In this document: one piece after another, positions 4,668 through 21,878 of the stretch
Layout: the number at the start of each line of letters is the position of its first letter
How positions within the stretch are numbered: position 1 is the first letter of the stretch
From: a virus
Length of the DNA stretch: 62,063 nucleotides
IMG/VR virus record: IMGVR_UViG_3300030116_004105
Coordinates: 1 to 62,063 of that record
Strand: one strand, 5' to 3'
The notes under the pieces: generated by a model
Told to the model about the DNA's origin: nothing
The model's database searches: none
The model's input: only the letters and a program-made list of their open reading frames with translations
Made by a program: the position numbers and the translations under genes

Positions 4668-5417
4668 TTATTGTTCGTTTTGTTGTTGTTGCCTAGGTCT
4701 TGATGCCCCACCGCTTTTCGATTGAGGATCTTGAGATCTATCATTTAAAGTATCGGAGAAAGTTCCAGACAACAAAGTCAACTCTCCGTTTGTTATTCCT
4801 TGATTAATTAAATTTACCATGTCTACAGGTATTGGATACGGATCTTTTGTAGGGTCATAACATTCAGTGTAATACTCTCCTGTTTCAGGATCTTGTTTTC
4901 CACATTGAGAAAATTTAGAAACTTCTTCAGGGTTTTCAAATACTCCCCTAATATTAATTGTATCTATACCATCAGAATTATGGATGTATAAATAATCTCC
5001 AATCATATAAGCTTTATATCTACCTTTAGTATAAGTATCATATGATAAAAATTGAAGTGTGTTTGGATTAATTAATGGTATAGTTTTAGTACCAGTAACA
5101 TCTCCAATATAAGTTAAAGCACTTTGAAAGTTAAGTCTTAAAGCTCTAGGAATAGGATTTACAGTTCTAAGGACTTTAGTTCCAACAGGTAGATTACAAC
5201 ATTTAGATCCATCTATAATCCGTAAATCTACGCATCCTAAATCTTGTTCTATATGATTTGAAATATACCCATTACGAGCAAAATCTCTCCTAATAAACAT
5301 TGCTCTGTAATGCCTAATGTTAAATTTAATTTGATCTAAAGATATATCTTCATCTTGATTAGACAAACCTCCTCTAATCAAATTTAATAAGTTATATGCT
5401 ATCTCATCTAATGTCAT
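4668..5417 (-). CDS. Head-tail connector / tail tubular protein (P22 gp4-like)
   Basis: The N-terminus MTLDEIAYNLLNLIRGG, with IKFNIRHYRAMFIRRDFARN and EQDLGCVDLRIID after it, matches the connector protein that crAss-like phages share with the P22 gp4 / T7 gp11 ring family as I remember it. In those phages the protein forms the ring under the portal. The C-terminal 30 residues are Gln/Ser-rich and disordered (SGGASRPRQQQQNEQ). It is adjacent to the holin with a shared base, so it is expressed together with the lysis genes. Length is in the usual range for the family. Confidence 0.7.
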   Translation of the reverse strand: MTLDEIAYNLLNLIRGGLSNQDEDISLDQIKFNIRHYRAMFIRRDFARNGYISNHIEQDLGCVDLRIIDGSKCCNLPVGTKVLRTVNPIPRALRLNFQSALTYIGDVTGTKTIPLINPNTLQFLSYDTYTKGRYKAYMIGDYLYIHNSDGIDTINIRGVFENPEEVSKFSQCGKQDPETGEYYTECYDPTKDPYPIPVDMVNLINQGITNGELTLLSGTFSDTLNDRSQDPQSKSGGASRPRQQQQNEQ

Positions 5418-5803
5418 TATTTTTTTCTAATTTTTTCTATAGATCTTCCTGCAAAGTAAGCTCCATAAACAGTTATCAATAAAGTTTGATATATTGGTAT
5501 ATAGGCTGGAGCTATTTCAAATCCTCCAGCATTTCCATCAAAAATTGAAATAATAACAAACATTGCTGTTAAAAATATACATATTAATGGACGTATATTT
5601 TTGCTAAGCCAATTATCAGATTTCATATCAGCTTCCCAACGCCTAGTAACTTGTTCCTGAGCATCTGCTTCAGCTTGCATAAGAACTTCTTTCATAGCTT
5701 GCTTAGCAGCTAATCTTTCTTCTTCAGTAGTAGTTAAATTATCTATTACTCCTCCTACCTTTTCTATTACGTTTCCGCCTAATATTTTTAATAGTTTACT
5801 CAT
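5417..5803 (-). CDS. Holin (3TM holin family)
   Basis: The 128-aa protein has an amphipathic, charged N-terminal half (about residues 20-65), then KSDNWLSKNIRPLICIFLTA opening two hydrophobic helices (about 70-88 and 98-118) and a basic tail (GRSIEKIRKK). The RWEADMKSDNWLSKNIRP junction is typical of the 3TM phage holin family. Such proteins permeabilise the inner membrane so that the lytic enzyme reaches peptidoglycan. It sits directly after the M15 peptidase in the same operon with a one-base overlap, a standard lysis cassette arrangement. Confidence 0.85.
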   Translation of the reverse strand: MSKLLKILGGNVIEKVGGVIDNLTTTEEERLAAKQAMKEVLMQAEADAQEQVTRRWEADMKSDNWLSKNIRPLICIFLTAMFVIISIFDGNAGGFEIAPAYIPIYQTLLITVYGAYFAGRSIEKIRKK

Positions 5804-6270
5804 TATAATATAATTATGTCTGGAGCATATCTATATCTAGTATCTCCATCCTTATCTTTATAAGCTTCTAATACTTCTTTTCTATTGTCTTTCTTTTTAA
5901 GAGATATATGTATCCATGCAAAATCAAACTCATTAATCATTTGATCAAATTCTAATCCTGATTGTAAAACCCAGTCATATATTTCTTTATTAGACATTTG
6001 GCCTTCTTTCCAAAATTGTAAATCCAAAGCTTCACCTTTACAGTGCTGCGACTTAGAGCTGCCACCAATAGCACGATTGAGTTCCGGGTTGCGATAACCA
6101 CTACTAATCCTGATAGGACCAAGATGGTCGCGCATAGGTTGTATAAGGTTTGTAATAATCCTTTGGATACCTTCCATATGTTTTTTCGTTGGCTCATTAC
6201 TTATGCCTAATCTTTTTGCTGTATTGCTTCGAGTAATCTCGGATAATACAAAATTTTTACTTAATCTCAT
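5803..6270 (-). CDS. Endolysin-like M15 peptidase (D-Ala-D-Ala carboxypeptidase/endopeptidase fold)
   Basis: This 155-aa single-domain enzyme has the M15 zinc site: SSGYRNPELNRAIGG, then SQHCKGEALDL (S-x-H-x-x-G-x-A-x-D, giving the His and Asp ligands) and a third ligand in FAWIHISL. M15 enzymes cut peptide cross-links of peptidoglycan; in a phage this is either the endolysin or a tail lytic enzyme. Adjacency to the holin favours the endolysin. There is no signal peptide, consistent with holin-dependent release. Confidence 0.88.
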   Translation of the reverse strand: MRLSKNFVLSEITRSNTAKRLGISNEPTKKHMEGIQRIITNLIQPMRDHLGPIRISSGYRNPELNRAIGGSSKSQHCKGEALDLQFWKEGQMSNKEIYDWVLQSGLEFDQMINEFDFAWIHISLKKKDNRKEVLEAYKDKDGDTRYRYAPDIIIL

Positions 6271-6288
6271 AATTTTTAATTAAAAATT

Positions 6289-6624
6289 TTAAAATGCTTC
6301 CATTACAATTTCATCTATAGAATTCTGTACTTCTTTTTTAGTAGCTTCCATAGTCATCATAATATTTGCTTGAAATCTTTTTACCTCTTCGTTATTATTA
6401 AATATTACAATAGTAGGTACAACTACTATTTTATATTCACTTGCCCATCTAGAGTCAGATGTTATATCCACTCTTTCTGTTTCACAGTCTGATAACTTTG
6501 GTAACCATTCTACCTGGTTAGCTGCATTAAAACTAGCATTAAACTCAACAGCAACCATTCCATCAGGAAAGTCTTGAGCCATAGCGCCAGTATAAATACA
6601 AAATAAAACAAATAGTTTTTTCAT
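6289..6624 (-). CDS. Secreted thioredoxin-fold protein lacking the CxxC motif
   Basis: A signal peptide is visible (MKKLFVLFCIYTGAMAQ, cleavage near AMAQ-D). The mature part has a thioredoxin-like plan: a strand (MVAVEFNASF), then WLPKLSDCETERVDITSDSR, and the cis-Pro strand VVPTIVIFNNNEEVKRFQ. The usual W-C-x-x-C active site is replaced by W-L-P-K-L-S-D-C, leaving a single Cys, so redox exchange by the normal mechanism is not expected. It is probably periplasmic. It lies between the lysis enzyme and a small membrane protein; the role is unknown. Confidence 0.75.
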   Translation of the reverse strand: MKKLFVLFCIYTGAMAQDFPDGMVAVEFNASFNAANQVEWLPKLSDCETERVDITSDSRWASEYKIVVVPTIVIFNNNEEVKRFQANIMMTMEATKKEVQNSIDEIVMEAF

Positions 6625-6630
6625 AAGATA

Positions 6631-6915
6631 TTATTTTAAGTCATCTATCTTTTCTTCAAGACGTAGCATATGTCCTTTAATTTCTTTTACATCATCTTGA
6701 GTTGTCATAATAGTTTGACGGATTAATTGATCTTTCATATCATACTCCATGCGGGTAATCTCAGGATCAGGAGGCAGAGGTAATTTTTTAGCCTCTGCTA
6801 TATCTGCTTGCAGTACAAACCATCCACTAATGGCTGCAGCCATTAATACTGCTATACCTGCTAAAGTTTTTAAACTTATATTAAAAGATGTTTCTTCGCT
6901 TAATTCTTTTGCCAT
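6631..6915 (-). CDS. Small membrane protein with coiled coil (94 aa)
   Basis: There is one transmembrane helix (about residues 15-36, TLAGIAVLMAAAISGWFVLQ) followed by a Pro-containing linker (KKLPLPPDPEI) and a charged heptad-like helix to the C-terminus (QDDVKEIKGHMLRLEEKIDD). This plan occurs in phage inner-membrane proteins near lysis genes, including i-spanins, but no lipoprotein partner is visible here. It is 6 bases downstream-spaced from the thioredoxin-fold gene and 2 bases from the beta-barrel gene, so it is co-transcribed with both. Confidence 0.75.
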   Translation of the reverse strand: MAKELSEETSFNISLKTLAGIAVLMAAAISGWFVLQADIAEAKKLPLPPDPEITRMEYDMKDQLIRQTIMTTQDDVKEIKGHMLRLEEKIDDLK

Positions 6916-6917
6916 TT

Positions 6918-8018
6918 TTAAAATATTACATAGTTAAGACCAACGCTAAAGTTGTGCCATTGTCTGTTCCAATACTTATTGTATCTACCTTCTATAAATA
7001 CACCTAAGCTTTTATTAAATCTATATCCATATATTAGTCCTGCTGAATAATCTAACCATTGTTTACCCTTGTAATTATAATAAGAGTATTCATTACCTGT
7101 GTCTACATGGTAAGGCATAAGATTACCCCAGCTGTGAAACCAGAAATCTTTTGTAAAATGATAATAATCAAATCCTAATACTGCAGAGTATTCTACTATA
7201 TTAGATATAGAATTTCTTTGATCTTCTACATAGTCATCTATTACTTGAGGTATAACAACCTCTTCCCACACTTCTTGACTAGTTGCTACTACCTCTCCAT
7301 TGGGTGCTGAATACTGTCCATCTAATGTTATAGTGTATCCCTCTTGAAGTGCCAAGTATGTATAATGTAAAGTCCCATTGTCCAGCACCCAGTCTGCTAA
7401 AGGGTCAAAACCGTATGGTTCTGCAAGCCTTTGAACAGCTCCTAAGTTAAAAGATAATTTACCTGTTTCTCCTATTTGCAATCTAAACCTTTCAGACGCT
7501 TCAAAATATTTTATATCTGCAAATCCGTCTTCTAAGTACTCTACTTTACTTACCCATTTGTCAGCAACGTATCTTACAAAATGATGTTGGTTTGTAAAGT
7601 TAACACCTAAACGGCGTACAAAATCAGCTTCGAATAAATACTCAAAGCCATCGACTCTACCAATTGTGGCTGCATCACTGTATGAATTTTCTGTACCATT
7701 ATAAAAGGTAAGAGCTCTATTTTCATATCCAAATCTTTTTATTTTTCTTATACCTATAGATAATGTGTAATCAAAAGGTGTTTGTACTGTTTGCTCTTCT
7801 AATGTTCCAGAAGTAATAGACCATATTTGATCATCACCTAATGATGTCCCACCATTGACAGCAGCATAAAACGTAGAATATTTAAATATTTTATGTAATC
7901 CTTGAGCATTACAAGAAGGAGCTGCTATAGTAAAAAATATTAAATAAAATAAAACTAGTACTATCCAAAATGATAAGTACGCAACGTCAGGTGTAAAAAA
8001 TTCTTTTAATCTTTTCAT
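6918..8018 (-). CDS. Outer-membrane beta-barrel-like protein (366 aa)
   Basis: The N-terminus has a short charged stretch, then a long hydrophobic segment (residues 14-35) ending CNAQ, which is a signal peptide or anchor. The mature part shows repeated amphipathic strands rich in Tyr, Phe, Trp and Gly, and the C-terminus reads NFSVGLNYVIF, ending in Phe as outer-membrane barrels inserted by BamA do. I infer an outer-membrane barrel rather than a virion protein. It overlaps the T9SS cargo gene by 4 bases (ATGA), so the two envelope proteins are made together. Possible roles are receptor masking or lysis of the outer membrane; neither is shown. Confidence 0.7.
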   Translation of the reverse strand: MKRLKEFFTPDVAYLSFWIVLVLFYLIFFTIAAPSCNAQGLHKIFKYSTFYAAVNGGTSLGDDQIWSITSGTLEEQTVQTPFDYTLSIGIRKIKRFGYENRALTFYNGTENSYSDAATIGRVDGFEYLFEADFVRRLGVNFTNQHHFVRYVADKWVSKVEYLEDGFADIKYFEASERFRLQIGETGKLSFNLGAVQRLAEPYGFDPLADWVLDNGTLHYTYLALQEGYTITLDGQYSAPNGEVVATSQEVWEEVVIPQVIDDYVEDQRNSISNIVEYSAVLGFDYYHFTKDFWFHSWGNLMPYHVDTGNEYSYYNYKGKQWLDYSAGLIYGYRFNKSLGVFIEGRYNKYWNRQWHNFSVGLNYVIF

Positions 8019-10489
8019 TTCTTTAATACTTTTCTTGTGCTAATGTTACCATTATATGTTACGCTAAAATTATATATACCTGCTGGTAATAAACTTACAT
8101 CTAATTGATTTAATCCTTTATGCGTTTGATTTTCTTTAACTCGTATTACAAGCTTACCTGATATATCATACACTTCTATACCTACAGGACCATTTGTTAA
8201 TATGTTTAACACATCTCCCATAGGGTTAGGATACATAACTACATTATGTCCTCTAAGTAAATCTCTTGTATCTAATGGACTATCCCAAGAACAACTCCAA
8301 TATATTTGTTCACATTTATCATCCCACTCATTATTACAACAATAAGGATCTATCATAATTACCCAAGCGTAACATGTATCATTTAACCAATACGGCACAC
8401 CAGGGCCACCAACACATCCTGCATCATATAAACAACTTCCATCATCTGTATTATATACTGCATCGTAGTTATGAGCTAAAGGATCCATACAACCTTCTAG
8501 CACATCTATACATCCACCATTGTCTGTATTAGCTAATGGATCGTAATTAAATGCTGTATCATCTGTACAACCATATACCACATCTATACAAGAAAAATCT
8601 TCTGTATTTGCATCCGGATTGTAATTAAAAGCATTAGGATCTGTACATCCTGGTGTTACTGGAATACAAGATCCATTATCGGTGTTAGCAACAGGGTCAT
8701 AATTAAATGCAATAGTATCAGTACAACCAAATATAAAAGGTATACAGTTATCGCTTGCCGTGTTTGCTTCTTCATTATAATTATACATTGTAGGATCCAT
8801 GCATCCTATTATAACGGGGATGCAACTACCGTCATTGACATTAGCGTCTACTTCAAAATTAAATGCTTCTGGATCAGTACACCCTGGAACGGGGTATATA
8901 CAATTATCATTATTTACGTTTGCTGTACTATCGTAGTTAAGAGCTAACTCATCAGTACAACCAAAATATAAACAAGACTCATCGGCAGTATTTGCTTCAG
9001 GGTTATAGTTCCATGCTGAATTATCCATACAACCAACTACTACAGCTACACAAGAACTATCGTCTACATTAGCAAGCGAGTTATAATTAAATGCGAAGGG
9101 TGAGGTACAACCTTCTACTATCTCAATACAAGAACCATCGTCTGTGTTTGCGTTAGAGTTGTAGTTTAAAGCTTGTTCATCCAAACACCCATATACTTTA
9201 GGTATACAATAGTCTCCACAGAATGGAAGCGCATCGTATATATGCCAGAATGGTGGTTTGTAAGCTTTAAGTGCTCCTTGTCCATTATTAGAAAATGGAA
9301 ACACACCACCTTGCAAAGTTACATCACCATTTGAGTTTATAAGTTTAAAAGAATTATGCATAGTCTGAAACGCAACTTCTGCAGGAGGAGTTTGCGGACT
9401 AGCTATTTCAAAGTAGTATACCTTGACAGGCTTATCTGTTTCTAGTGTTATACCAAACTCTTGTGAGTAAGGCCCAGGACCCATTGTGTATGTACCAAGT
9501 ATACTGTCTTCTTGTACAACACCTATATAACAATCACCCCAGCCGTCGCCACCGTCATCTTCTATGATAAGAGTGTAATTACATGTAGGCACTATTTCAT
9601 TTAATGTAGCTTGTGGATTAAAGTTAAATGCGTTAGGATTTATACATCCCAATGTGTGTAATGTCTCACAAGACCCATCATCAAAATTAGCTTGAGGATT
9701 AAATTCTATATATGTATTATTAGTACATCCTTCTATTATAGGTAAGTCACATTGTTGTAGCCATATAGGGCCTGAATATGCAGCATTACCAAACCCTGGA
9801 TCTTCTAATGCCCATAAGGTATCTAAACTACCACAAGGCTCTGCATCACCAAGCATAATAAAATCTCCATCTGTACCACCAAATAAAGATCCTTCTAAAC
9901 CATCACCGTATGTATCACTTAATATAAGCTCTACACCTGTTTCAGGCACGCACAAATCATATATAATAGTTTGATTTGCTTGCTCATAGGAATACTCGCC
10001 AGCTACTACATTGTCTACAGGTTGCCCTGTTGTTATATCTGTTAGTATCCATCCTGTTTCACCAGGATATTGATCTAGTGTAAGCTTAAGTATCATTTTA
10101 GCCTCACCATCAGAACAGCTTATACCAATGCAGCTGTCATTATCAACTTCAGCCCAAGGATTGAAATTAGGAGCTTCTGGATTAGTACATCCAAATACAG
10201 GATAATTGCATGAGCCGTCATTAAAATTAGCTTCAGGCACATAGTTTAACGCTAACATATCTGTACATCCTGGTACAGTATCTATAGGTAGTGGGCAGTC
10301 TTCTGCATCATACCCAAACTCCTCACAGTTAAAGTCTATTACGTTTCCGCCCCATGTGTAGGAACCGTCATCGCAAAACCCATCGCCTAGCCAAGAAATA
10401 GGTGCTTCTGTTCCAGAGCAGTCTAAGATAGTATCTTGAGCATTTACTGTTAGCGTTAATAATAATAAAATATTTATTAGTCTTAACAT
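8015..10489 (-). CDS. Secreted Cys-repeat protein with type IX secretion sorting domain (824 aa)
   Basis: A signal peptide is present (MLRLINILLLLTLTVNAQ). A Notch/LNR-like Cys cluster follows (WLGDGFCDDGSYTWGG ... NCEEFGYDAEDCP). Fourteen Cys-containing repeats of the form GC-T/M-D-P-x-A-x-N-Y/F-x-P-x-A-x-x-D-D-G-S-C come next, ten of them in tandem. A CC-x-x-EWDDKCEQIYWSC module precedes the C-terminus. The last 75 residues are a classic T9SS type A sorting domain: VVMYPNPMGDVLNI, then IEVYDISGKLV, LDVSLLPAGIYNFSV and a Lys-rich end (STRKVLKK). Such domains direct periplasmic proteins through the Bacteroidetes T9SS to the cell surface or medium. In a phage operon next to lysis and barrel genes this suggests a protein placed on the infected host's surface. 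Its target is unknown. Confidence 0.9.
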   Translation of the reverse strand: MLRLINILLLLTLTVNAQDTILDCSGTEAPISWLGDGFCDDGSYTWGGNVIDFNCEEFGYDAEDCPLPIDTVPGCTDMLALNYVPEANFNDGSCNYPVFGCTNPEAPNFNPWAEVDNDSCIGISCSDGEAKMILKLTLDQYPGETGWILTDITTGQPVDNVVAGEYSYEQANQTIIYDLCVPETGVELILSDTYGDGLEGSLFGGTDGDFIMLGDAEPCGSLDTLWALEDPGFGNAAYSGPIWLQQCDLPIIEGCTNNTYIEFNPQANFDDGSCETLHTLGCINPNAFNFNPQATLNEIVPTCNYTLIIEDDGGDGWGDCYIGVVQEDSILGTYTMGPGPYSQEFGITLETDKPVKVYYFEIASPQTPPAEVAFQTMHNSFKLINSNGDVTLQGGVFPFSNNGQGALKAYKPPFWHIYDALPFCGDYCIPKVYGCLDEQALNYNSNANTDDGSCIEIVEGCTSPFAFNYNSLANVDDSSCVAVVVGCMDNSAWNYNPEANTADESCLYFGCTDELALNYDSTANVNNDNCIYPVPGCTDPEAFNFEVDANVNDGSCIPVIIGCMDPTMYNYNEEANTASDNCIPFIFGCTDTIAFNYDPVANTDNGSCIPVTPGCTDPNAFNYNPDANTEDFSCIDVVYGCTDDTAFNYDPLANTDNGGCIDVLEGCMDPLAHNYDAVYNTDDGSCLYDAGCVGGPGVPYWLNDTCYAWVIMIDPYCCNNEWDDKCEQIYWSCSWDSPLDTRDLLRGHNVVMYPNPMGDVLNILTNGPVGIEVYDISGKLVIRVKENQTHKGLNQLDVSLLPAGIYNFSVTYNGNISTRKVLKK
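8432..9190 (-). repeat. Ten tandem ~25-residue Cys repeats in the T9SS cargo protein
   Basis: Ten consecutive units, from GCLDEQALNYNSNAN to NTDDGSCL, each begin GC and end with C about 20 residues later, with N-Y/F in the centre and an Asp-rich loop. The spacing is close to 25 codons. Asp-rich loops bounded by two Cys suggest calcium-stabilised disulphide modules. The units are divergent at DNA level, so the array is old or kept by selection at protein level. Further single copies occur in the 3070-aa and 1660-aa attachment proteins. Confidence 0.9.
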
Positions 10490-10851
10490 TACTTTTTCTT
10501 TTTTGTTTTGTTTCTAGATTTTCTTATAGCTTCTTTACCTCTTTTAAAAATAGATGCAACCTGTGTTTTGCCCATTACCTTAGCTCTTTGTTCTCCTACA
10601 GTTAGTATTTGAATTTTACGAGCGTATGGTTTACTAATACGTTTTACTTTTGCTACAGTAGCCCTAGCATCTGCAGGTGTAGCAAACTTAATTCTAACTG
10701 TATCTTTTGGGTTCTCATCTGTATACAATCTTCTTCCTGAACCTTTGGGTTTTTTACCAGTTCCCTTTTTAGGATCTCTACTTTTTCTTGGCACGTCTTG
10801 TTGTTTTAGTTTTTCTTTTTCTAATTGCAGAAGTTCTCCTGCCCATACCAA
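10489..10851 (-). CDS. Basic phage protein (120 aa)
   Basis: The core KGSGRRLYTDENPKDTVRIK, followed by FATPADARATVAKVKRI and a basic C-terminus (RKSRNKTKKKK), is a pattern found in small basic proteins of marine phages. Its only ATG (10851) gives a 74-base overlap with the upstream gene in another frame; the recognisable core begins after the overlap, so the first 25 residues are less certain. High Lys/Arg content suggests nucleic-acid binding. No function is known to me. Confidence 0.7.
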   Translation of the reverse strand: MVWAGELLQLEKEKLKQQDVPRKSRDPKKGTGKKPKGSGRRLYTDENPKDTVRIKFATPADARATVAKVKRISKPYARKIQILTVGEQRAKVMGKTQVASIFKRGKEAIRKSRNKTKKKK

Positions 10852-11059
10852 CGCGCTTCTTCTCAGCTACTACTGCAGCTTTACGTTTACCAAGGCCTTT
10901 CCATGTAACAGGAGTTTTAGAAGACACACGCTTAGAAGGCCGACACTTCTTTGTGTTTTTATTCTTACGAGAACCACATGGATTGCCTTTCTCATCTTTC
11001 CATTTCTCTTTGAACCATCTTTTTAAGTTGAGGCCCGCTTGTGTTTTTCTAACTGCCAT
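10778..11059 (-). CDS. Basic phage protein (93 aa), LKRWFKEKW motif
   Basis: The protein carries LNLKRWFKEKWKDEKGNPCG and KKCRPSKRVSSKTPVTWKG, the design of a small basic protein that recurs in marine phages (a W-F-K-E-x-W start, two Cys, then R-P-S-x-R). About 40 percent of residues are Lys or Arg. The final 24 codons overlap the next gene in a different frame; the C-terminus (TKTTRRAKKK) is as basic as the rest and looks genuine. Likely a nucleic-acid-binding accessory protein, by charge only. Confidence 0.7.
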   Translation of the reverse strand: MAVRKTQAGLNLKRWFKEKWKDEKGNPCGSRKNKNTKKCRPSKRVSSKTPVTWKGLGKRKAAVVAEKKRVGMGRRTSAIRKRKTKTTRRAKKK

Positions 11060-11061
11060 AT

Positions 11062-11379
11062 CTATTTCTTTTTACCTGCTTTACGTTTTCTACATTTAGC
11101 TATTGCGCCAGACGCGTATGCGCTAGGGAATACTCTATATCTAGCTTTCACTGAATGATAACAAGCATCCTTTACAGTCCCGCCTTTTTTATACTTCTTT
11201 ACAGCAGTAGTTTTAGCTTTAGATTTTGCTTTAGGTTTAGCTTTAGTTTTAGCCTTAGCCTTAGGTTTTGGTTTAGTATGACCATAGCCTTTAGCTTTCA
11301 AAGCTAAATGTTCTTTCATAGTTTTAGCTACAACTACTTTGCTGCCTTTATACATTTTATGTTTTTTAAAAGCTGCCAT
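11062..11379 (-). CDS. Basic phage protein (105 aa) with KARYRVFPSAYASGAIAKCR motif
   Basis: The middle is a Lys-Ala-Pro repeat (KPKPKAKAKTKAKPKAKSKA), probably disordered and histone-tail-like. The C-terminal motif DACYHSVKARYRVFPSAYAS is a hallmark of a small protein seen in many marine phages, where it ends in CRK as here. The two Cys flank this motif. It is one of a cluster of tiny cationic proteins and may help condense DNA; that is inference. Confidence 0.75.
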   Translation of the reverse strand: MAAFKKHKMYKGSKVVVAKTMKEHLALKAKGYGHTKPKPKAKAKTKAKPKAKSKAKTTAVKKYKKGGTVKDACYHSVKARYRVFPSAYASGAIAKCRKRKAGKKK

Positions 11380-11381
11380 AT

Positions 11382-11597
11382 CTATTTATCTTTAGCAAAT
11401 TTTTCAACGCCTGATATACCAAAGCAACCAAGGACTACCCATACAAATGAATTATATACATACTCATTTATAACTAAGTCTTGGCCTACCCAGCCAGTTA
11501 CGAGATCAGCTATCATAATTAGACACATAACTGCAAAGGCTATAAATCCTACGACAGCTTTCTCGTTCCAGGCGTTATCGTTTTTAAATATCTCCAT
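11382..11597 (-). CDS. Small two-helix membrane protein (71 aa), holin-like
   Basis: There are two hydrophobic helices (about residues 14-35 and 45-63) with a short loop and charged ends (KNDNAW at the start, EKFAKDK at the end). The second helix reads SFVWVVLGCFGISGVEKFA. Size and topology fit a second small holin or another inner-membrane protein. It is 2 bases downstream-spaced from the KARYRVFPSAYAS gene and shares a base with the Lys/Met-rich gene. No partner enzyme is adjacent. Confidence 0.7.
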   Translation of the reverse strand: MEIFKNDNAWNEKAVVGFIAFAVMCLIMIADLVTGWVGQDLVINEYVYNSFVWVVLGCFGISGVEKFAKDK

Positions 11598-11887
11598 TAT
11601 TTCTTTTTTCCGTATCCACCCATCATTTTCTTCATAGCCTTATCTTGCTCTTTAATAGCTTTCATAAGACCTCCCATTGCTTTCTGGATCATCATACCAC
11701 CTTTCTTAAGTTTTGCAGGATCAAATCCCATATTCTTAACAGCTTCTCTTCCTTTAGGAGATTTAGCTAATGCTTTTAATCCAGCTTTTGATTTACCACC
11801 TTTTTTCATCATAGCTGGTTTAGCTTTTTTACCACCGGCCATCATTTTCTTTTTACCGCCGTATGCCATTTTCTTCCCGTGTTTCAT
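11597..11887 (-). CDS. Lys/Gly/Met-rich small protein (96 aa)
   Basis: Composition is extreme: Lys, Gly and Met make up most of the chain (KKKMMAGGKKAKPAMMKKGG). One short ordered-looking segment reads SPKGREAVKNMGFDPAKLKK. Such proteins accompany structural genes in marine phages. The first 12 codons overlap the 48-aa gene upstream. The likely role is DNA binding or packaging by charge; no family is recognised. Confidence 0.7.
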   Translation of the reverse strand: MKHGKKMAYGGKKKMMAGGKKAKPAMMKKGGKSKAGLKALAKSPKGREAVKNMGFDPAKLKKGGMMIQKAMGGLMKAIKEQDKAMKKMMGGYGKKK

Positions 11888-12665: not shown

Positions 12666-15600
12666 TTAACATGATTCACAATATTCAGCATTACACATAT
12701 CTGTAAGCTTTTGAATATACATATCTATTTTAGTTTGGTTATTTTCTATAACCGCTTGTTTATATCCATCATAAAGAGCATATATCTTTAAAGCTCTTTC
12801 TGCTTCTTTTGTGTCACAATCTGTTAAAGACAGTGAGAATAAAGAATTTTTAACACACTGCTCAAATCCAGCATCAAAACAATTACCATCATCCATCGCT
12901 GCATGTGAATTGTAATTAGCTGCAGTAGGGTCCGTACAACCATAAACAACAGGTCTAATAGTTATTGTATCAAATGTATGTGAAGAGTTTTTATAAGTTT
13001 TATTTATAATCATTTCTCCATACTCAGATTTTAACTGATACTTATAATCAAATTTTGACGTATTCTTAAATCTTACACCAATTCTTGTTTCTTTACTTAT
13101 AGGAAAACTATTAATATAAGACTGACCCATGACATATTCTTCTGTATCAGAAGTTCTAAATAATGTTTTACCTGTATCTAAATTATAGATTTCAGCTATA
13201 AACAATTGATCAGAAGGTATTGTGGTTGATACTTCAAATGTAAATTGAATATCAGTAAATTCTTTAACATCTTTTTTAACATTTGTTATACAATAATCTG
13301 TTAATATTCTACCATTAACTGCACTCTCACATCCTAATTTACAAGAACTATTATATGATAAAAGCTGTGTTCCTGAAGTAATCTCAGGATTAACTATATT
13401 TGCTCCATAGCTTAGAATTGATATAGGTGAAGAGTTTTTATTTATTAATAAAACTATATTTTTCCACTCATCTTCTGATTTAAATCCTATAGGAACAAAA
13501 TATAAACAAGAGCTTTCTGGAAGAGGAGATGAAAAATATCCATTTTGTTGGAAAGTACCTGGATATAATCCAAAGTTTGCTTGAAGAACCTCTCCATAAG
13601 AATTATATAAAACCCATTTTAATTTAGTAGGATCAGAAGGGAAACCAATTAATTCTATATCATCAGTAAAAGATCCCTCAATATACGTACATGTTCCATT
13701 ATCAACTGTAGCAAGCGGATTATAATTACTAGCTAATTGATCTGTACAACCATAAACGGCACCTGTTATAAAATTTGTAAAGTCTATTGAAAACTCATAT
13801 GGATGCCCTGTAACAGGATTTAGTCTAGGTATAACTTCATACATATGATACACATCAGTAGAAAATGGTGGAACAGGATTATTTTGCGCATCTACCTCAT
13901 TAGGATTTGTTACCGGAGATATACTTGTATTAATACCTTTTTGAAGATTACCTATACCATCTATTGTATTATTAAATAATGGGTCTGGTATATACTCTGA
14001 ACCATCAGCTGCTTTTATAGATAATATCTTATCCTCATGCTGACTAAATATTTGTTGTATAGAGTAAGTATTTAAATTTAACCCTGCATGTAATCTAAAA
14101 TAATATCTAACTGAATATATGTTAGGATCACCTGGTTCAAAACTTGGAACATCTGCATATGAAGGATCATAAACAAGAGGTTCTCCAGCACCTAAAGCTT
14201 CTTGTCCTGGAGAGTCAGGTGTGTATCCATATATTATTTCTCCATTTTGAGCTGGGTTTGTTATTTGAAGTATAGGACTTCCAATAGCTCCTGGTGCTGA
14301 TACTATAACTTGACATTTAAAAGTATAAAAAGGTTGGTCATAGTAAAGATTTGCACCGTAAAACTCATTGTATTGTAAGAAACGATCTGGGTTTTGATTA
14401 ATGAATTGTAGATTTGCAAACTGAGTTCCAATAAAATAGTTACCTTCTACATAAGTACTAGGTCCTGTAGTGTCTATACCTATAGCATCTAACTCAGTAA
14501 GTAAAGAAGCGTATAAACAATTACCATCGTCTTCGGTTGCTTCTGAATCAAAGTTTACAGCAGTTGAGTCTGTACACCCAAAACAAGCATTATACTCAAG
14601 ACCTTCAGGCAACCAACAAACACCACAATCATCAAGCTCAGGTTGTTGGCCTGTAATATAACATAAACCATCACAACCTAATGATTGACCCTCACAGCAG
14701 TCTCCATTTGCTAAAGATCCTCCTACTCTTACTCCGCCTAAAGTACAATCATCACATTCATTTAAAGCATATTCATATTCCCATTCAGAACCATTCCATT
14801 CAGCACAATTACCTTCACAATCTGTTTGACTAGGGTGTCCTACTGGATTACCATCTGGATAAGTATAATCCGCAGGTCTACAACCACCAGTACCAAAAGC
14901 ACATGAGTCCCAAACATAACCTTGACAACATCTGTTGTTCTCGTTAGTCTGATTAAAAAATGAGACAAGAGGTTGCGGTGTGTCATCACATTCACATTTA
15001 TATAAAGTACTGTTTCCATCTATTACTTGATAGAATCCTTCTGCTGCACTTTCATAATCTATAAAAGTAGTTGGATAAGTTCCACATTCGCTACAATCGT
15101 TTGGTGTGAATGCAGCTACTATATTTTGCCACTGCTGAGCATTTAATTGTTGTGTTGGTTGTATACCATACGGAGAACCAGCCTCAGCACATGGATTACA
15201 AGAAGTTATAAAAGATTCTGAAGAAGAACCGCCGCCTCCCCAAGTTACAGTATATTCATTAGGTCCAGTTAAAAATACAGAAACAAAACCATCATCAGGA
15301 ACATCTCCTTCGCTTTCAAACATAGTTGCTATACAACTATTACATTGATCAACTAAACCAGCAGCAAGATCAGTTTCAAATATACCTGTTACACCCTCAC
15401 AACATGGAAGTTCAGCTTCTGATGGAGGAACACAGCTACCACATTCATTTAATACTCCACTTCCATAATAATCATTAGAGTATATGTTTCCTGGCGCAGT
15501 ACCTGGAGGTACAAAGGGTAGCAACGCAGCAATAGACTCATTGCTCCACACTTTCCATTTACATTCTCCATTACAATCATATTGTTGTCCTTCTGCAGCA

Positions 15601-18600
15601 TCCTCTGCAGTAATACCTGTAGTTTCACCTATTTGTAAAAGTATACCCTCATCAGTTGCACACTCGTCACATTGGTTATAATTAACTGCAGTTCCAAGAT
15701 CGCCTGATAGTATATATTCTGATTCAAGATCTTCAGGACTAATAACAATACCATTTCTTATATCGTAGTAAGCACCTACATTTGGTGCTAATGCATTAGG
15801 GTGAAACACAAGCATTTCCTGAGTTATTTCACAAATATATCTTCTAGGTATATCACAAGCAGGGATACCATTACCATCTACATCTTCATAGTAAAGAGTA
15901 GCTGCTGTATTACAGTCACAAAATACTTGATCAGCTATAAAAGAACCTCCACCAGCATCAAGCTCTCCGTCACAATTACAATTTGGTCCAAATAGCTCGC
16001 TAGCAAGCGCTCCATTACAGTTACAAATACTTGAGTTACTAAATTGTTCCGGCTCTACTACAACACCGTTCTCACAATAACATCCGTATTCTGCTCCAGT
16101 AGCAACAGTACCTTCACAATCACAATACTCTCCTTGTTCTTGTCCTTGACTATTAAAATATGGTACAGGATTGTTATCACAATCACAAGTAGGTTTTTTT
16201 AGAAATATAAAATCAGGATCATTAGGATTTGATGGGTCGTCTGCCCCACAACTACCACAATACATTGAACCATATAAAGAGCCGCTAAATACAGGATCCC
16301 CTCCAAGGTATTGATTACAAGTACATACAATACCTAAGTCTATCATTGTATCAGGATAATACGGATCAGGATACACGTCAGTAGGAGAATAAGTACAACC
16401 TGTCTGTACTGTCATTTGAGGATCTAAAGCAGGATTATAATTACATGCATCTGGGTCTGTACATCCATACTCTCCACACAAATCAGAATTAGAAGTCACC
16501 CACTGATAGTAAGTTTCTTCATCTCCTGAGGTATATCCACCACCATTTTGATCATAAAATGGAGCATCTTCTTCTAAACAATGCTGACAATATGTAGGAT
16601 CAAAGTCACTTACTGGTTCAAAATTAGATGGATTCTCCCCTACATGTATACACCAATCATTTATAATAGGCTCTCCAGTTTCAGGATCTACTGGTTGAAT
16701 AGGCTCTCCAGGATATGTATCTATATATGTCCATTGCCCATCACCATTTTCCTGAGTTGTAATAGGTATAAACACCCATGTACCAGATACAGTAATTAGG
16801 TTACAGCCAGCACCATCTTCTTCTATGCCTACAGGGCCTGCCCAAGGACCAGCTATTATTGTATCTGTTTCTGCCTCATATGTAACTGCTATTTCAACTA
16901 TATAAGTTGCTTGACAGCCGCAGTTTATATTATTAAAACAAGTAACATTAAATGCTGATAGAAAATTTGTATAATCATTACTTCTTGCCGTCGCTAAAAA
17001 AGATGAAACTAAATCTGATCTACCACCACCCTGACATGTAAATAATGCATTTTCAAACTCAGCATCTAAATACTCAACCACCTCAGCAAAGTTAGGTATA
17101 TTATAAGAACTTGCAGAACCCCAACCATAACCTAAATCTGGACATTCTGCATCAGTACAACCATCGGTATCAAGAGATGCTAAATTAGTTAAATCAATAT
17201 TAGAATTAGTATCAAGATCTTGAGAATAAACACAACTACCATCATTTACAGTAGCATTAACATTGTAATTAATTGCTGCTATATCCATGCATCCAAATTG
17301 GATTGCCCCTAAATTAGTAATTTCCTCAAAAACCTCATCGTAATCTTCCTCATCTATTTTAGTCCCTGATGTACTAGCTGGAGATATTGGGGTAATCCCT
17401 ACAGAACCATAAAAGTTAGCAAGAAACCCTCCAGGATCTCTTGTAACTCCTAGTACTTGATTTAATGTAACAACTCTTGCATTTTTATGTAACCTTGCAG
17501 CTAGAGTGTTTTCAGAAGCCGTAATAACTCCTGTCATTTGAATTATAGGCTCATCTTCAATTTGTTGAGGATGAGTAAGAGATACAAAAATATTATTATC
17601 AGGACTTCTATACAGACCTGTCATTGTAGAGTTAGCTCTATATACTAGATTTCCTTGGTAAGAATTTCCATCACTATCAAATGTAAATAAATCTGAATAT
17701 AATGAAAGAGCGCCTTGTGATGAGTATGACTCAGATTCTTGAACAGGCCCATCTAATCGGAATGCTGAAGGTTCTGAAATATTTGTTTTATCAATATCTA
17801 TTCTTATTAATCTTGAAGATGCATGTCCATCATTAAGAGTACCAAAACTATCTTGAGAAAATACATCTTCAGTTTGACGATGCTGCCCTATTAATACATA
17901 AAGTTTTTGATTATTAGGAGAAAACTCCATACCTCTTACTATAGCGTCCACCATAATAGAGCTAGGATCATTAGGACTTATACCTTCTTTTCGTAAAAAG
18001 TCATTAGTGGTTAATTTAATTGTAGAACCAATTTTATCTCCTAAAAGTAACGGGTTGCGATTGTCACTGTCTTTATTAAAATTAAATAAACTTATTGTTA
18101 TTTCATTAAAGGTCTCTTCATGAAGAACAGAAGTTGCTATAGCTATATATAGACCGTTTCTAGAAACACGCATAGTAGTAAATATTTTACCATTATGAAC
18201 ATTATTAGCGATAACATCTGATATAGTATGAACAAATTGTTTATCACTCTGGTCACTCGCAAGAAAGCCCTGTGCGCTAGCTGACGATAAACTTCTTTTA
18301 TTTATAGATAAGTAATTTATATAAATGTCTGTAATTCTGTATTCATGTATAACCGAACCAGAACTAGACGTAGTCGTACTAGTATAAAATCCCTGTGTTG
18401 AAATAATTTTAAATGTATTTTCAGTCTCATATATTTCTATCCCAGGAATTATTTTATAAAAAGTGTTAAGTGCAGATCCACTAACTGCCGCACTTCTAAG
18501 TAATTCATATCTAGGTGATACAGAATATTCAGGATTATTAATAGAACCTGCTACACTAACAATTTTGTATGAATATAAAGGTGGATAAGTTCCATTTGTA

Positions 18601-21600
18601 TCAACCATGGAATGGTCATTCTTATTATAAAAACCAACAAAATACTCCTGATTACTAAGAGGTAATATAAAACTTGAATTTTGCGTATCAAGAGACTTAT
18701 AATACGTAAGTACAGGTGAATTTGTTCCTTCAGGTACATCATAAGAAAGAGAACTATCTAGCTCATTATCGTTTTTACCATATAATTTTAACTTATTACC
18801 CCAAGTAGCATATGTATATAAAACTACATCATTTGATGCTCCATTTGCAGTTTGTGTTGCATTAGATAAAGGAAGAAGAGCTGGATCATGTATATTTGGA
18901 ATTACTGTTTGAGATATACTATCATATGTAACACCAGCACCTATTATTTTAGAATTATAAAAATTATTAAGTATCGGTGCTACAAAAGCGCCAGCTGATT
19001 CTACTGGTATAGAAGAATTAAAAGCATCAATAGAAGAATATATAAACCTTCTATCATCTTCTGTATTTTGTACATCTGTGCCTTGAGCTGAAAATTCTAA
19101 TCTTGCTACGTCTAAAATAGAGTCTCTATAAAAAGACGAAGGTAAATAATCTGTAGTAACTTCAAATACTTCAGGATTGTCTACAAAGGCAGTTACACTG
19201 TCGTATAGATCTGGAGAAGAAATTTTATGAAATTGCCCACTATCAGACCAGATATAAATTGCACCATCTGATTGCAATGTTATTCTTTCAAGGCTACCAG
19301 CAAATACATTATCGACAACTTTTACAGTAGAAGTAACTGCGCTTTGACCGGCTGCCTCAACGCATCCAGTATTATTACCACCTGGGTGTATATTATATAT
19401 TGCAATTTTTCTATCCGTACTATCCTGAGGATTTTGTATTATAGTATATAGGTGAGTATCACTAGCTGAAAACTCCATAGCTATAGGACTCCACCCTCCA
19501 TTAAAGTTAGCCATATCAGGATCTCCTCCTGGTATATGGACTTCCAAACCTCCTTCAGTTCCTGGAGGTATAATAGAAAAATTAGTGTTATTTATTTTTG
19601 TTAATAGTATACCATGATTAACTGCTATTGCTAAATGAAAATCTCCAATATGGTTAAGATTATCAACTGTTTCTGTTAAGCTTAAATTATATGATTCAAG
19701 AAAACCTTGAGTATAACCAGGAAACTGTGGAATATAAATATTAGTAGCTTGGGCAGATACATGATTAGGGTTAGCAAAATAAGAATTATAAAAAAGTTTA
19801 TTTCCTATAGTAACAGGTAGTTCTCTATATCTATCTATGCTTAAATATCTACTTGCACCGCCTGTAAATTTATTAGATCCAGCACTCCAAGTATTTACAA
19901 CCGTATTCTCAAATTTAGATAATTGAAAACTAAATCCTGTAGAAAAAGGTCTTAATACTAAAAGTTTTCCATTTTGAGATGAAAACTGAGGAGATATATC
20001 CATAGGAGTATTTCTGGCGGATAAAGTATTACTATTATTCTCATCAACGTGTAAAAGAGCAGTATCATTTACTTCATTTCCTAAGTTATTTGCAATCGTA
20101 TCTTGGTCCATATAACCAACAATATCAGGGGCTTGAGAATCTCCAAAAACAGTGGCTAATTTTGGGTCTAGTGAGTTAGGCTCAAAATCATTGTAATTAA
20201 TTATATGCGTTAGGTTGTCAGCTGACATAAGTCTAAATAATCTAGCTATAGGAGCAAAGGGGTCTAAATTAATAGCTACCAAACCTGTGTAAGTAGGTAA
20301 CATAAAGTTTTTAAAACTTTTTATATTGACATCGTAATCATACTCAGCATCATCTTGTTGCAATACACTAGGAGATTCTGTCAAGCTACCTATTATATAA
20401 TGATCTAGCCGTCTTTGCATCATAAAGTAAGTTATTCCTGGGACACTTCCAGCAGGATTATAACCATCTCTAGCTCCTGATACTACATCTGTATTAACTA
20501 CTACTTTTCCATCATTACTAACACTTAGATAATCGCCACTAGTTTTATCTTTATAAGCAAAATTATATTGATGCATTTGAGCTGACTTCACATTCCCATA
20601 CATTAAAGTATCACTGTCGCAGTAAGGTACAGGAGTACCTTCTGGTGTAAATTGTTGTAAAGTATCATCTAATTCTATTTTTCTTAATTCTCCTTGAGAA
20701 CCAAACCAATATAAAAGATGCTTATTATTTGTATTTTGTATATAATGAATTTTAAAATTAGAGGTATGCAAATAATCTTCTACAGGTGAACCTAATAATG
20801 AATAATTAAAATCATTTATAAGATTGCTTGTTAATCCACTAAGCCTTGCTCCATGATGATTAAAAATATCTATATCTCCAGAGTTATTTGCTATAACATA
20901 GTATCTTATAATTCCTGTACTATCTCCATATTCAGACGCACCTTTATCTGTTATAACTAAACTAGTAAGTTGAGAATTGTTATCAGAAAAAGATGGAGAC
21001 AAAGTTAAAGGCTCGCTAGAGCTATTACTAATGGATGTAAGGGTGTTGTCAACATCTCCAAACACACCGCCCTGTATTGCATAGTAACCTTCAGGTTGTA
21101 ATAACACATACTCAGGATAGGGCTCATTTATATATCTAGCTCCTATTCTTGGCATCATTAAAGTTACGTTAGCTCTCGGGTCCTCGTATACACAGCCCCC
21201 ACCTTCAATAGTTGCCTCTGGATTATAGTTTGTTGCATTAGGATCTGTACATCCTAAAATATAAGGTCTTCTTCCTGTAGTAATTCCATATACATTTACT
21301 ATACCTTTTTTAATTACTGGGTAATCAACTAGTATACTTTTATTTATACTACCATCAGATTCAACTGTTAATTTTGACACAGAAGGATAAAAGGTAGATA
21401 AGAATTTAGTATTCATAGGGCTTACCTTTTGAGTTCTAGGCACCCGAAGCAGCAAACCTATATTATATACTAAGTAGTTTAATAATAAATATTTACCACT
21501 AGGCATTCCAGTAAAAGCCCAGTTCAACCCAGACTTTAATTGTATAGCTGGAGAACCATAAGTAATCTGAACTCTGCTAGTTATATTAGAAACACTAATA

Positions 21601-21878
21601 GTTATGTCGGAAGTAGTATCTGATTTTACAAAACTTAAAGCTATATACTCCCCATATAAAGAGTTGAATAAAAGCTCCCATTGTTTAAATGCATTTTGAA
21701 CTTCAACATCAAATGCATGTTTTGTTATGTATGTATTTGGTAAAACTTTTACATCTTTAAGTGTTGGATGGTCTACCAATAAATTATCAAAATTTTGAAT
21801 AGAATAATTTAAAACAACTGGAGCAACTTCATTAGAAGTTTTACCCTTATTTATTGCGTCTCTTAAAGTAGTTAACAT
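12666..21878 (-). CDS. Giant Cys-rich attachment (tail-fibre-type) protein, 3070 aa
   Basis: Three broad zones are visible. Residues 1-200 have the plan of a matrixin-like zincin (AFKQWELLFNSLYG, SDITISVSN, then LVYNIGLLLRVPRTQKVSPM), but the expected HExGH is Y138-N-I-G-L142, so it would be inactive. Residues about 240-1500 are long, repetitive beta structure with many SPNNxxLYV/I-type turns. Residues about 1520-2300 hold dozens of Cys in short modules (CNCNGAL, CDCEGTV, NECGSC). GC-T/M-D-x-x-A-x-N-Y repeats occur near residue 208 and at about five later sites, the last near the C-terminus, which ends CNAEYCESC. No signal peptide is seen. Size, position after the capsid genes and surface-protein-like modules suggest a host-attachment fibre; this is inference. 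Confidence 0.8.
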   Translation of the reverse strand: MLTTLRDAINKGKTSNEVAPVVLNYSIQNFDNLLVDHPTLKDVKVLPNTYITKHAFDVEVQNAFKQWELLFNSLYGEYIALSFVKSDTTSDITISVSNITSRVQITYGSPAIQLKSGLNWAFTGMPSGKYLLLNYLVYNIGLLLRVPRTQKVSPMNTKFLSTFYPSVSKLTVESDGSINKSILVDYPVIKKGIVNVYGITTGRRPYILGCTDPNATNYNPEATIEGGGCVYEDPRANVTLMMPRIGARYINEPYPEYVLLQPEGYYAIQGGVFGDVDNTLTSISNSSSEPLTLSPSFSDNNSQLTSLVITDKGASEYGDSTGIIRYYVIANNSGDIDIFNHHGARLSGLTSNLINDFNYSLLGSPVEDYLHTSNFKIHYIQNTNNKHLLYWFGSQGELRKIELDDTLQQFTPEGTPVPYCDSDTLMYGNVKSAQMHQYNFAYKDKTSGDYLSVSNDGKVVVNTDVVSGARDGYNPAGSVPGITYFMMQRRLDHYIIGSLTESPSVLQQDDAEYDYDVNIKSFKNFMLPTYTGLVAINLDPFAPIARLFRLMSADNLTHIINYNDFEPNSLDPKLATVFGDSQAPDIVGYMDQDTIANNLGNEVNDTALLHVDENNSNTLSARNTPMDISPQFSSQNGKLLVLRPFSTGFSFQLSKFENTVVNTWSAGSNKFTGGASRYLSIDRYRELPVTIGNKLFYNSYFANPNHVSAQATNIYIPQFPGYTQGFLESYNLSLTETVDNLNHIGDFHLAIAVNHGILLTKINNTNFSIIPPGTEGGLEVHIPGGDPDMANFNGGWSPIAMEFSASDTHLYTIIQNPQDSTDRKIAIYNIHPGGNNTGCVEAAGQSAVTSTVKVVDNVFAGSLERITLQSDGAIYIWSDSGQFHKISSPDLYDSVTAFVDNPEVFEVTTDYLPSSFYRDSILDVARLEFSAQGTDVQNTEDDRRFIYSSIDAFNSSIPVESAGAFVAPILNNFYNSKIIGAGVTYDSISQTVIPNIHDPALLPLSNATQTANGASNDVVLYTYATWGNKLKLYGKNDNELDSSLSYDVPEGTNSPVLTYYKSLDTQNSSFILPLSNQEYFVGFYNKNDHSMVDTNGTYPPLYSYKIVSVAGSINNPEYSVSPRYELLRSAAVSGSALNTFYKIIPGIEIYETENTFKIISTQGFYTSTTTSSSGSVIHEYRITDIYINYLSINKRSLSSASAQGFLASDQSDKQFVHTISDVIANNVHNGKIFTTMRVSRNGLYIAIATSVLHEETFNEITISLFNFNKDSDNRNPLLLGDKIGSTIKLTTNDFLRKEGISPNDPSSIMVDAIVRGMEFSPNNQKLYVLIGQHRQTEDVFSQDSFGTLNDGHASSRLIRIDIDKTNISEPSAFRLDGPVQESESYSSQGALSLYSDLFTFDSDGNSYQGNLVYRANSTMTGLYRSPDNNIFVSLTHPQQIEDEPIIQMTGVITASENTLAARLHKNARVVTLNQVLGVTRDPGGFLANFYGSVGITPISPASTSGTKIDEEDYDEVFEEITNLGAIQFGCMDIAAINYNVNATVNDGSCVYSQDLDTNSNIDLTNLASLDTDGCTDAECPDLGYGWGSASSYNIPNFAEVVEYLDAEFENALFTCQGGGRSDLVSSFLATARSNDYTNFLSAFNVTCFNNINCGCQATYIVEIAVTYEAETDTIIAGPWAGPVGIEEDGAGCNLITVSGTWVFIPITTQENGDGQWTYIDTYPGEPIQPVDPETGEPIINDWCIHVGENPSNFEPVSDFDPTYCQHCLEEDAPFYDQNGGGYTSGDEETYYQWVTSNSDLCGEYGCTDPDACNYNPALDPQMTVQTGCTYSPTDVYPDPYYPDTMIDLGIVCTCNQYLGGDPVFSGSLYGSMYCGSCGADDPSNPNDPDFIFLKKPTCDCDNNPVPYFNSQGQEQGEYCDCEGTVATGAEYGCYCENGVVVEPEQFSNSSICNCNGALASELFGPNCNCDGELDAGGGSFIADQVFCDCNTAATLYYEDVDGNGIPACDIPRRYICEITQEMLVFHPNALAPNVGAYYDIRNGIVISPEDLESEYILSGDLGTAVNYNQCDECATDEGILLQIGETTGITAEDAAEGQQYDCNGECKWKVWSNESIAALLPFVPPGTAPGNIYSNDYYGSGVLNECGSCVPPSEAELPCCEGVTGIFETDLAAGLVDQCNSCIATMFESEGDVPDDGFVSVFLTGPNEYTVTWGGGGSSSESFITSCNPCAEAGSPYGIQPTQQLNAQQWQNIVAAFTPNDCSECGTYPTTFIDYESAAEGFYQVIDGNSTLYKCECDDTPQPLVSFFNQTNENNRCCQGYVWDSCAFGTGGCRPADYTYPDGNPVGHPSQTDCEGNCAEWNGSEWEYEYALNECDDCTLGGVRVGGSLANGDCCEGQSLGCDGLCYITGQQPELDDCGVCWLPEGLEYNACFGCTDSTAVNFDSEATEDDGNCLYASLLTELDAIGIDTTGPSTYVEGNYFIGTQFANLQFINQNPDRFLQYNEFYGANLYYDQPFYTFKCQVIVSAPGAIGSPILQITNPAQNGEIIYGYTPDSPGQEALGAGEPLVYDPSYADVPSFEPGDPNIYSVRYYFRLHAGLNLNTYSIQQIFSQHEDKILSIKAADGSEYIPDPLFNNTIDGIGNLQKGINTSISPVTNPNEVDAQNNPVPPFSTDVYHMYEVIPRLNPVTGHPYEFSIDFTNFITGAVYGCTDQLASNYNPLATVDNGTCTYIEGSFTDDIELIGFPSDPTKLKWVLYNSYGEVLQANFGLYPGTFQQNGYFSSPLPESSCLYFVPIGFKSEDEWKNIVLLINKNSSPISILSYGANIVNPEITSGTQLLSYNSSCKLGCESAVNGRILTDYCITNVKKDVKEFTDIQFTFEVSTTIPSDQLFIAEIYNLDTGKTLFRTSDTEEYVMGQSYINSFPISKETRIGVRFKNTSKFDYKYQLKSEYGEMIINKTYKNSSHTFDTITIRPVVYGCTDPTAANYNSHAAMDDGNCFDAGFEQCVKNSLFSLSLTDCDTKEAERALKIYALYDGYKQAVIENNQTKIDMYIQKLTDMCNAEYCESC

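Follow-up and report, generated by a model that had tools for sequence, protein, structure and literature searches.

A four-gene envelope cassette of marine phages includes a predicted type IX secretion substrate and may remodel the host surface late in infection

The 824-aa protein of a crAss-like phage that carries a C-terminal sorting domain of the type IX secretion system (T9SS) belongs to a cassette of four co-directional envelope genes, which recurs almost invariably complete in marine viral contigs of several kinds. The other members are an outer-membrane beta-barrel protein (OMP), a small protein with a single transmembrane helix (TM94) and a secreted protein of thioredoxin fold. The window, that is, the whole stretch of DNA analysed, comprises 62,063 nucleotides (positions 1 to 62,063 of the IMG/VR record IMGVR_UViG_3300030116_004105); its relevant features are collected in Table 1. 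The best explanation of the data as a whole, in which our confidence falls a little short of even, is that the cassette is a four-part envelope system whose T9SS-exported surface protein would remodel the surface of the host late in infection. The original prediction concerned the T9SS protein; the four-gene cassette, its linkage to lysis genes, its occurrence in unrelated phages and the matching of the tail to the host were absent from it.

Table 1. Features of the cassette and its surroundings, in window coordinates
Feature	Position	Strand	Basis or remark
Three-TM holin	5417..5803	-	PF11351, 32.7 bits (cutoff 24.8)
M15 peptidase endolysin	5803..6270	-	PF08291, E 9e-18
Cassette secreted thioredoxin-fold protein, 111 aa	6289..6624	-	CxxC absent in 47/48 rows
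Cassette TM94, 94 aa; one N-terminal TM helix and a charged 59-aa C-terminal segment	6631..6915	-	Hydropathy
Cassette OMP, 366 aa	6918..8018	-	AlphaFold2 barrel, pLDDT 75 (moderate confidence)
T9SS substrate gene (cassette surface protein), 824 aa	8015..10489	-	ATG start; 72 viral relatives
T9SS type A C-terminal sorting domain	8018..8236	-	TIGR04183, PF18962
Run of ~26-aa repeats, GCTDPxAxNYNPxANxDDGSC	8390..9190	-	Also common in host surface proteins
Virus-specific N-terminal half, residues 18-430; Cys-rich start and two beta-sandwich-like domains	9200..10438	-	AlphaFold2
N-terminal signal sequence, residues 1-17	10439..10489	-	Hydropathy; cleavage site inferred
3070-aa late-module protein	12666..21878	-	Five copies of the 26-aa repeat of the T9SS protein

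The T9SS protein and the phage that encodes it

The original prediction had described the open reading frame as having a signal peptide and a canonical T9SS type A C-terminal domain, and both descriptions are borne out. The signal sequence is MLRLINILLLLTLTVNA, followed by Q; like all signal sequences in this work, it was called by hydropathy and not by SignalP, and in the corresponding census a signal-type N-terminus was found in 118/118 complete viral homologues as against 6% of 727 control ORFs. At the other end, the proposed profile search gave a match to TIGR04183 well above the cutoff of 23 (residues 752-824, E 4.5e-12, 45.8 bits), PF18962 matched as well (E 2.6e-12, 47.3 bits, cutoff 27), the motifs that had been quoted are present, and the domain reaches the last residue, 824. 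By its sequence, the protein is classed among the T9SS type A substrates. The suggested link to gliding adhesins fared worse, as the type B model TIGR04131 is not matched by the T9SS protein and is matched weakly by 2 of its 72 homologues. SprB-type gliding adhesins carry type B tails, and an adhesin of this type was rejected for lack of a TIGR04131 match.

Between the two ends, the protein has about ten 26-aa two-cysteine repeats, the majority of them in the second half. The N-terminal half was modelled by AlphaFold2 as beta-sandwich-like with moderate confidence (pLDDT 76), and the model has no confident relative in the PDB; a search with residues 98-502 against 198 Flavobacteriales genomes returned one phage-like contig as the sole match. 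The possibility that the body is an enzyme was rejected, since there were no family matches and the Foldseek matches were weak. Just upstream of the gene (10489-11887) follows a series of small ORFs that are rich in Lys, Gly and Ala and very basic; some of them overlap, and the one at 11597-11887 is 99% identical in the contig L009.

The claim that the gene is phage-encoded holds: genes for the crAss muzzle (PF25731) and ring-1 (PF24228) proteins are found on the same strand at a distance of 5-8 kb. The closest terminase is that of Cellulophaga phage phi14:2 (Crassvirales, 38%), and the source contig is classified by its genes as a crAss-like phage (Crassvirales). The source record is linear and 95,981 bases long, and a second copy of the cassette, 86% identical to window positions 5416-8747, was observed at record positions 92720-95981. 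As this copy adjoins divergent ring-1 and head genes (28-31% at the amino acid level), the record probably combines two related crAss-like phages in a chimera or an overlap; on the same grounds, its reading as a single clean circular genome was rejected. The contig L009 is 89% identical at the nucleotide level to the far end of the record and 79% to the near end, and the late-gene arrangement of the window recurs in other contigs, for example, in L022.

The 26-aa repeats are widespread in Flavobacteriales proteins, several of which end in T9SS-like tails, and it is from these shared repeats that the host is considered to be probably a marine Flavobacteriales bacterium. A 1660-aa protein of the late module (24139-29121) likewise contains the two-cysteine repeat that the T9SS protein shares with the host proteins.

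Conservation and replacement of the sorting tail

A search of viral proteins for the domain, likewise proposed in the original prediction, showed that TIGR04183 is matched by the C-termini of 63 of the 72 homologues and by nothing in the nearest isolates (phi14:2, Panino, elemoF, ctfjg026 and PTm1). A profile built from the viral C-termini retrieves solved T9SS C-terminal domains, namely, 8glk_D, 8glj_D, RgpB (5hfs/7pq4) and mirolase (8qb1). Among homologues of the T9SS gene, the median dN/dS is about 0.18 for the domain, as against 0.12 for the body. Since the domain is conserved and under purifying selection, it is not a chance match. When 38 virus records were searched in their entirety, nearly all of those above the cutoff contained a single TIGR04183 match; one record had a second, weak match in the same open frame.

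The nine homologues that escape TIGR04183 have in common a shorter tail, KKLxxVTDILGRPxxxxKNKLLLFIYSDGSVERK, and a model of this tail found matches in 69 of the 198 Flavobacteriales genomes, with up to 36 matches scored per genome. In the host regions examined, 22 such matches fall at protein C-termini; the proteins are diverse, and a signal sequence is present in nearly all of them. SprA is encoded by 15 of the 17 Flavobacteriales genomes having the short tail. Furthermore, the loci L027, L124 and L147 have bodies that are 53-70% identical and type A tails that are clearly different. Replacement of the tail by a type that hosts use is as expected under selection for export. We judge from these comparisons that the phage sorting tail is functional and that it is matched to the tail type of the host lineage. 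In every pair that includes the window copy, the tail shows less synonymous divergence than the body, which suggests recombination at the tail end.

A four-gene cassette in several phage backbones

The OMP, a query that carries no T9SS information, found 105 relatives in viral contigs, and the T9SS protein found 72 loci. All four genes are present on one strand in 71 of 72 distinct marine viral contigs (the set having at least 4 kb on either side of the OMP gene), many of which are mutually related and not independent, and most of which are fragments. The genes always point in the same direction, and they occur in three orders that can be converted into one another by circular permutation. One backbone is crAss-like; a second has a phrog_6681 terminase and a phrog_6547 portal and is related to Elemovirus and to Maribacter phage Panino; contigs of a third kind, from larger phages, carry UvsX-like, DnaB and ribonucleotide-reductase genes. 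The OMPs of the crAss-like and Elemovirus-like contigs are mostly 78-85% identical as against about 24% for the terminases, which argues that the cassette has moved horizontally as a unit between phages. In other backbones (L067, L129, L150 and others), genes resembling staphylococcal nuclease (PF00565) stand beside the cassette, amounting to 4 of 106 flanking ORFs.

Outside these contigs, the cassette is elusive. Searches of INPHARED isolate phages by tblastn with the T9SS protein, three OMP queries and TM94 gave nothing credible; the OMP and TM94 profiles matched nothing in phi14:2, Panino, elemoF, ctfjg026, PTm1 and a 634-kb phage, the TM94 profile (the one to which this control applies) having been detected in all seven control records; and PHROGs contained nothing comparable. 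In the 634-kb uncultured phage, known from metagenomic data (LR745206; L177-L179), T9SS type A tails above the cutoff occur on two ORFs, a further instance of T9SS cargo in a phage. Among GTDB genomes, four contigs had matches, and the two that were examined resemble phage contigs caught in metagenome-assembled genomes (MAGs). One cassette contig, L151, most likely a misbinned phage contig, was assigned to a MAG that carries the name of an archaeon, Candidatus Nitrosopelagicus.

The partners have few recognisable relatives. Neither the OMP nor TM94 belongs to a family in any library run, and PADLOC matched none of the four cassette proteins. In Foldseek searches, the OMP model retrieved generic porins and one unnamed viral protein only; its strong structural relative in BFVD is A0A516LKJ4 (342 aa, 22% identity, E 5e-24), for which PTm1 was guessed as the source, a guess that was not confirmed. 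Identity of the OMP with PorV, PorP or SprF found no support, as there was no relevant Pfam match in a scan of 65 members and no NCBIfam match of the window OMP; against chains of the T9SS, the best TM-score of about 0.29 reflects a weak, generic barrel similarity. TM94, which has its single helix at residues ~17-35, has a predicted layout like that of an i-spanin and no relative in the PDB. By eye, no lipobox was seen in the N-termini of the thioredoxin-fold protein and the OMP.

On the minus strand of the window, the order is T9SS protein, OMP, TM94, thioredoxin-fold protein, M15 endolysin, three-TM holin, and then head and ring genes. In 56 of the 72 contigs, recognised lysis genes (M15, amidase or holin type) are found no more than 5 kb from the cassette, and in 34 the distance is at most 11 bp; the proximity expected by chance in a genome of 60-100 kb is roughly 12-20%, a figure that was estimated and not computed from a control. 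These genes vary with the backbone: M15 with a PF11351 holin, amidase with a PF05105 holin, DUF5675, or a transglycosylase-like lysin; that the DUF5675 and transglycosylase-like genes encode lysins is our own reading.

What the cassette may do

The proposed arrangement would place TM94 in the inner membrane, the thioredoxin-fold protein, devoid of CxxC, in the periplasm and the barrel in the outer membrane, with the T9SS protein on the cell exterior. Upon Sec export, the C-terminal tail would direct the T9SS protein through the host SprA translocon, and its export via the host T9SS is, in our view, very probable. The position of the cassette on the map, in a late operon with the endolysin and the holin, indicates that it would be made late. 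Host-like repeats, shown beside the phage barrel, would then cover or alter receptors in the last part of the infection; rival phages would be kept out, and progeny would not be re-adsorbed to the dying cell. That a late change of the host surface has these two effects is plausible and still rather doubtful. Such remodelling is consistent with the combination of a sorting domain, a signal sequence and purifying selection, with the completeness of the cassette and its horizontal spread as a unit, with the swap to a host-type tail in lineages that have SprA, with the nearby lysis genes, and with repeats common to host surface proteins and to the 3070-aa phage protein. Moreover, T9SS-exported gliding adhesins may be phage receptors (PMC13288928). 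Gliding and T9SS mutations confer phage resistance in Flavobacteriia (PMC9233685, PMC13288928), as the original prediction had stated for Flavobacterium. Against it, exclusion proteins are often early whereas the cassette locus looks late, a repeat protein of 800-1300 aa together with three partners seems more than receptor masking would call for, and a role in lysis can be read from the map equally well.

In that latter case, which is the main rival, the cassette would serve Bacteroidota phages as a trans-envelope release system. TM94 would act like an i-spanin with a C-terminal helix that extends through the periplasmic side; its link to the outer membrane would be provided by the thioredoxin-fold protein together with the barrel; and, after endolysin action, the T9SS protein would pull on or destabilise the outer leaflet. 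The cassette abuts differing lysis genes in different backbones, and the i-spanin-like layout of TM94 is what this reading fits best; we consider it unlikely, given that no lipoprotein partner of the o-spanin type was recognised, that 16 of the 72 contigs have no recognised lysis gene nearby, that crAss phages are said to possess spanins already (reviewed in PMC10136315), and that a large adhesin-like surface protein, unneeded for known spanin action, is left unexplained. The repeats and the beta-sandwich domains without enzyme matches look adhesive, so that the protein might also be a secreted adhesin, a public good released with the lysate that would bind, for example, debris, particles or nearby host cells to the progeny; the constant inner-membrane and periplasmic partners would then lack an explanation, and this reading is improbable. 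Less credible still is jamming of the T9SS, whereby the exported protein, held by the barrel, would occupy or re-route the translocon and host adhesins that serve as phage receptors would no longer be displayed. A dedicated barrel does always accompany the substrate, and the phage tail type tracks the host tail types, but the barrel has no sequence relation to PorV, PorP or SprF and little structural likeness to T9SS chains. Finally, host genomes have the same repeats and tails, as they would if the gene were contamination or an incidental host gene acquired once; this reading, to which we assign almost no credence, is refuted by the presence of the gene in more than 70 viral contigs of several backbones, the virus-specific N-terminal half and the purifying selection. 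Late surface remodelling and lysis meet in a formulation that we offer tentatively: an undescribed, horizontally spread trans-envelope module of four proteins, the outermost delivered by the host T9SS with a host-matched tail, may act together with holin and endolysin either by breaking the outer membrane or by closing the dying cell to other phages.

Relation to known systems and to hosts

The cassette resembles Rz/Rz1 spanins in being a trans-envelope set beside endolysin and holin, with TM94 as the i-spanin-like part, and differs from them in having a barrel and a T9SS surface protein where an o-spanin lipoprotein would be expected. Superinfection-exclusion proteins of the T5 Llp type alter outer-membrane receptors in infected cells, which is the outcome proposed here; unlike the cassette, they are small lipoproteins and not T9SS cargo in a four-gene set. 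With the type A substrates of Bacteroidota (TIGR04183/PF18962), the T9SS protein shares the Sec signal, the sorting domain at the extreme C-terminus and the host-type repeats; unlike them, it is carried by phages, and its N-terminal half has no cellular counterpart in the 198 Flavobacteriales genomes, the phage-like contig aside.

Phage-borne T9SS substrates had been thought little described, and indeed the sole earlier report found in the literature is that on Cryophage (Bellas 2020, PMC7468147), whose authors propose superinfection exclusion for three cargo genes with T9SS C-terminal domains. As far as the available part of that report goes, the two cases have phage-encoded proteins with type A tails in common; the Cryophage cargo (an endoglucanase, a GH39 protein and a PA14 protein) is described as variable genes, whereas the cassette protein is a conserved repeat protein without enzyme matches that has three fixed partners and often stands beside lysis genes.

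Bacteroidota phages are among the commonest in the gut and the sea, and their surface and lysis biology is poorly understood. If the proposal is true, the T9SS-routed cassette would mean that viruses use a secretion machine found essentially only in Bacteroidota, and it offers a concrete set of genes for studying how the surface of infected cells changes, while the tail type gives host prediction a sequence handle. In addition, the nine tail swaps draw attention to a sorting tail that small-genome marine Flavobacteriales carry on dozens of secreted proteins per genome and that TIGR04183 misses in the phage copies; it is possibly a T9SS tail class that has not been modelled. This short tail, TDILGRExxxxKNxLLFYIYDDGTVEKK, was seen at the phage loci L131, L133, L135, L136, L140, L141, L143, L144 and L070 and at the host loci L166-L171.
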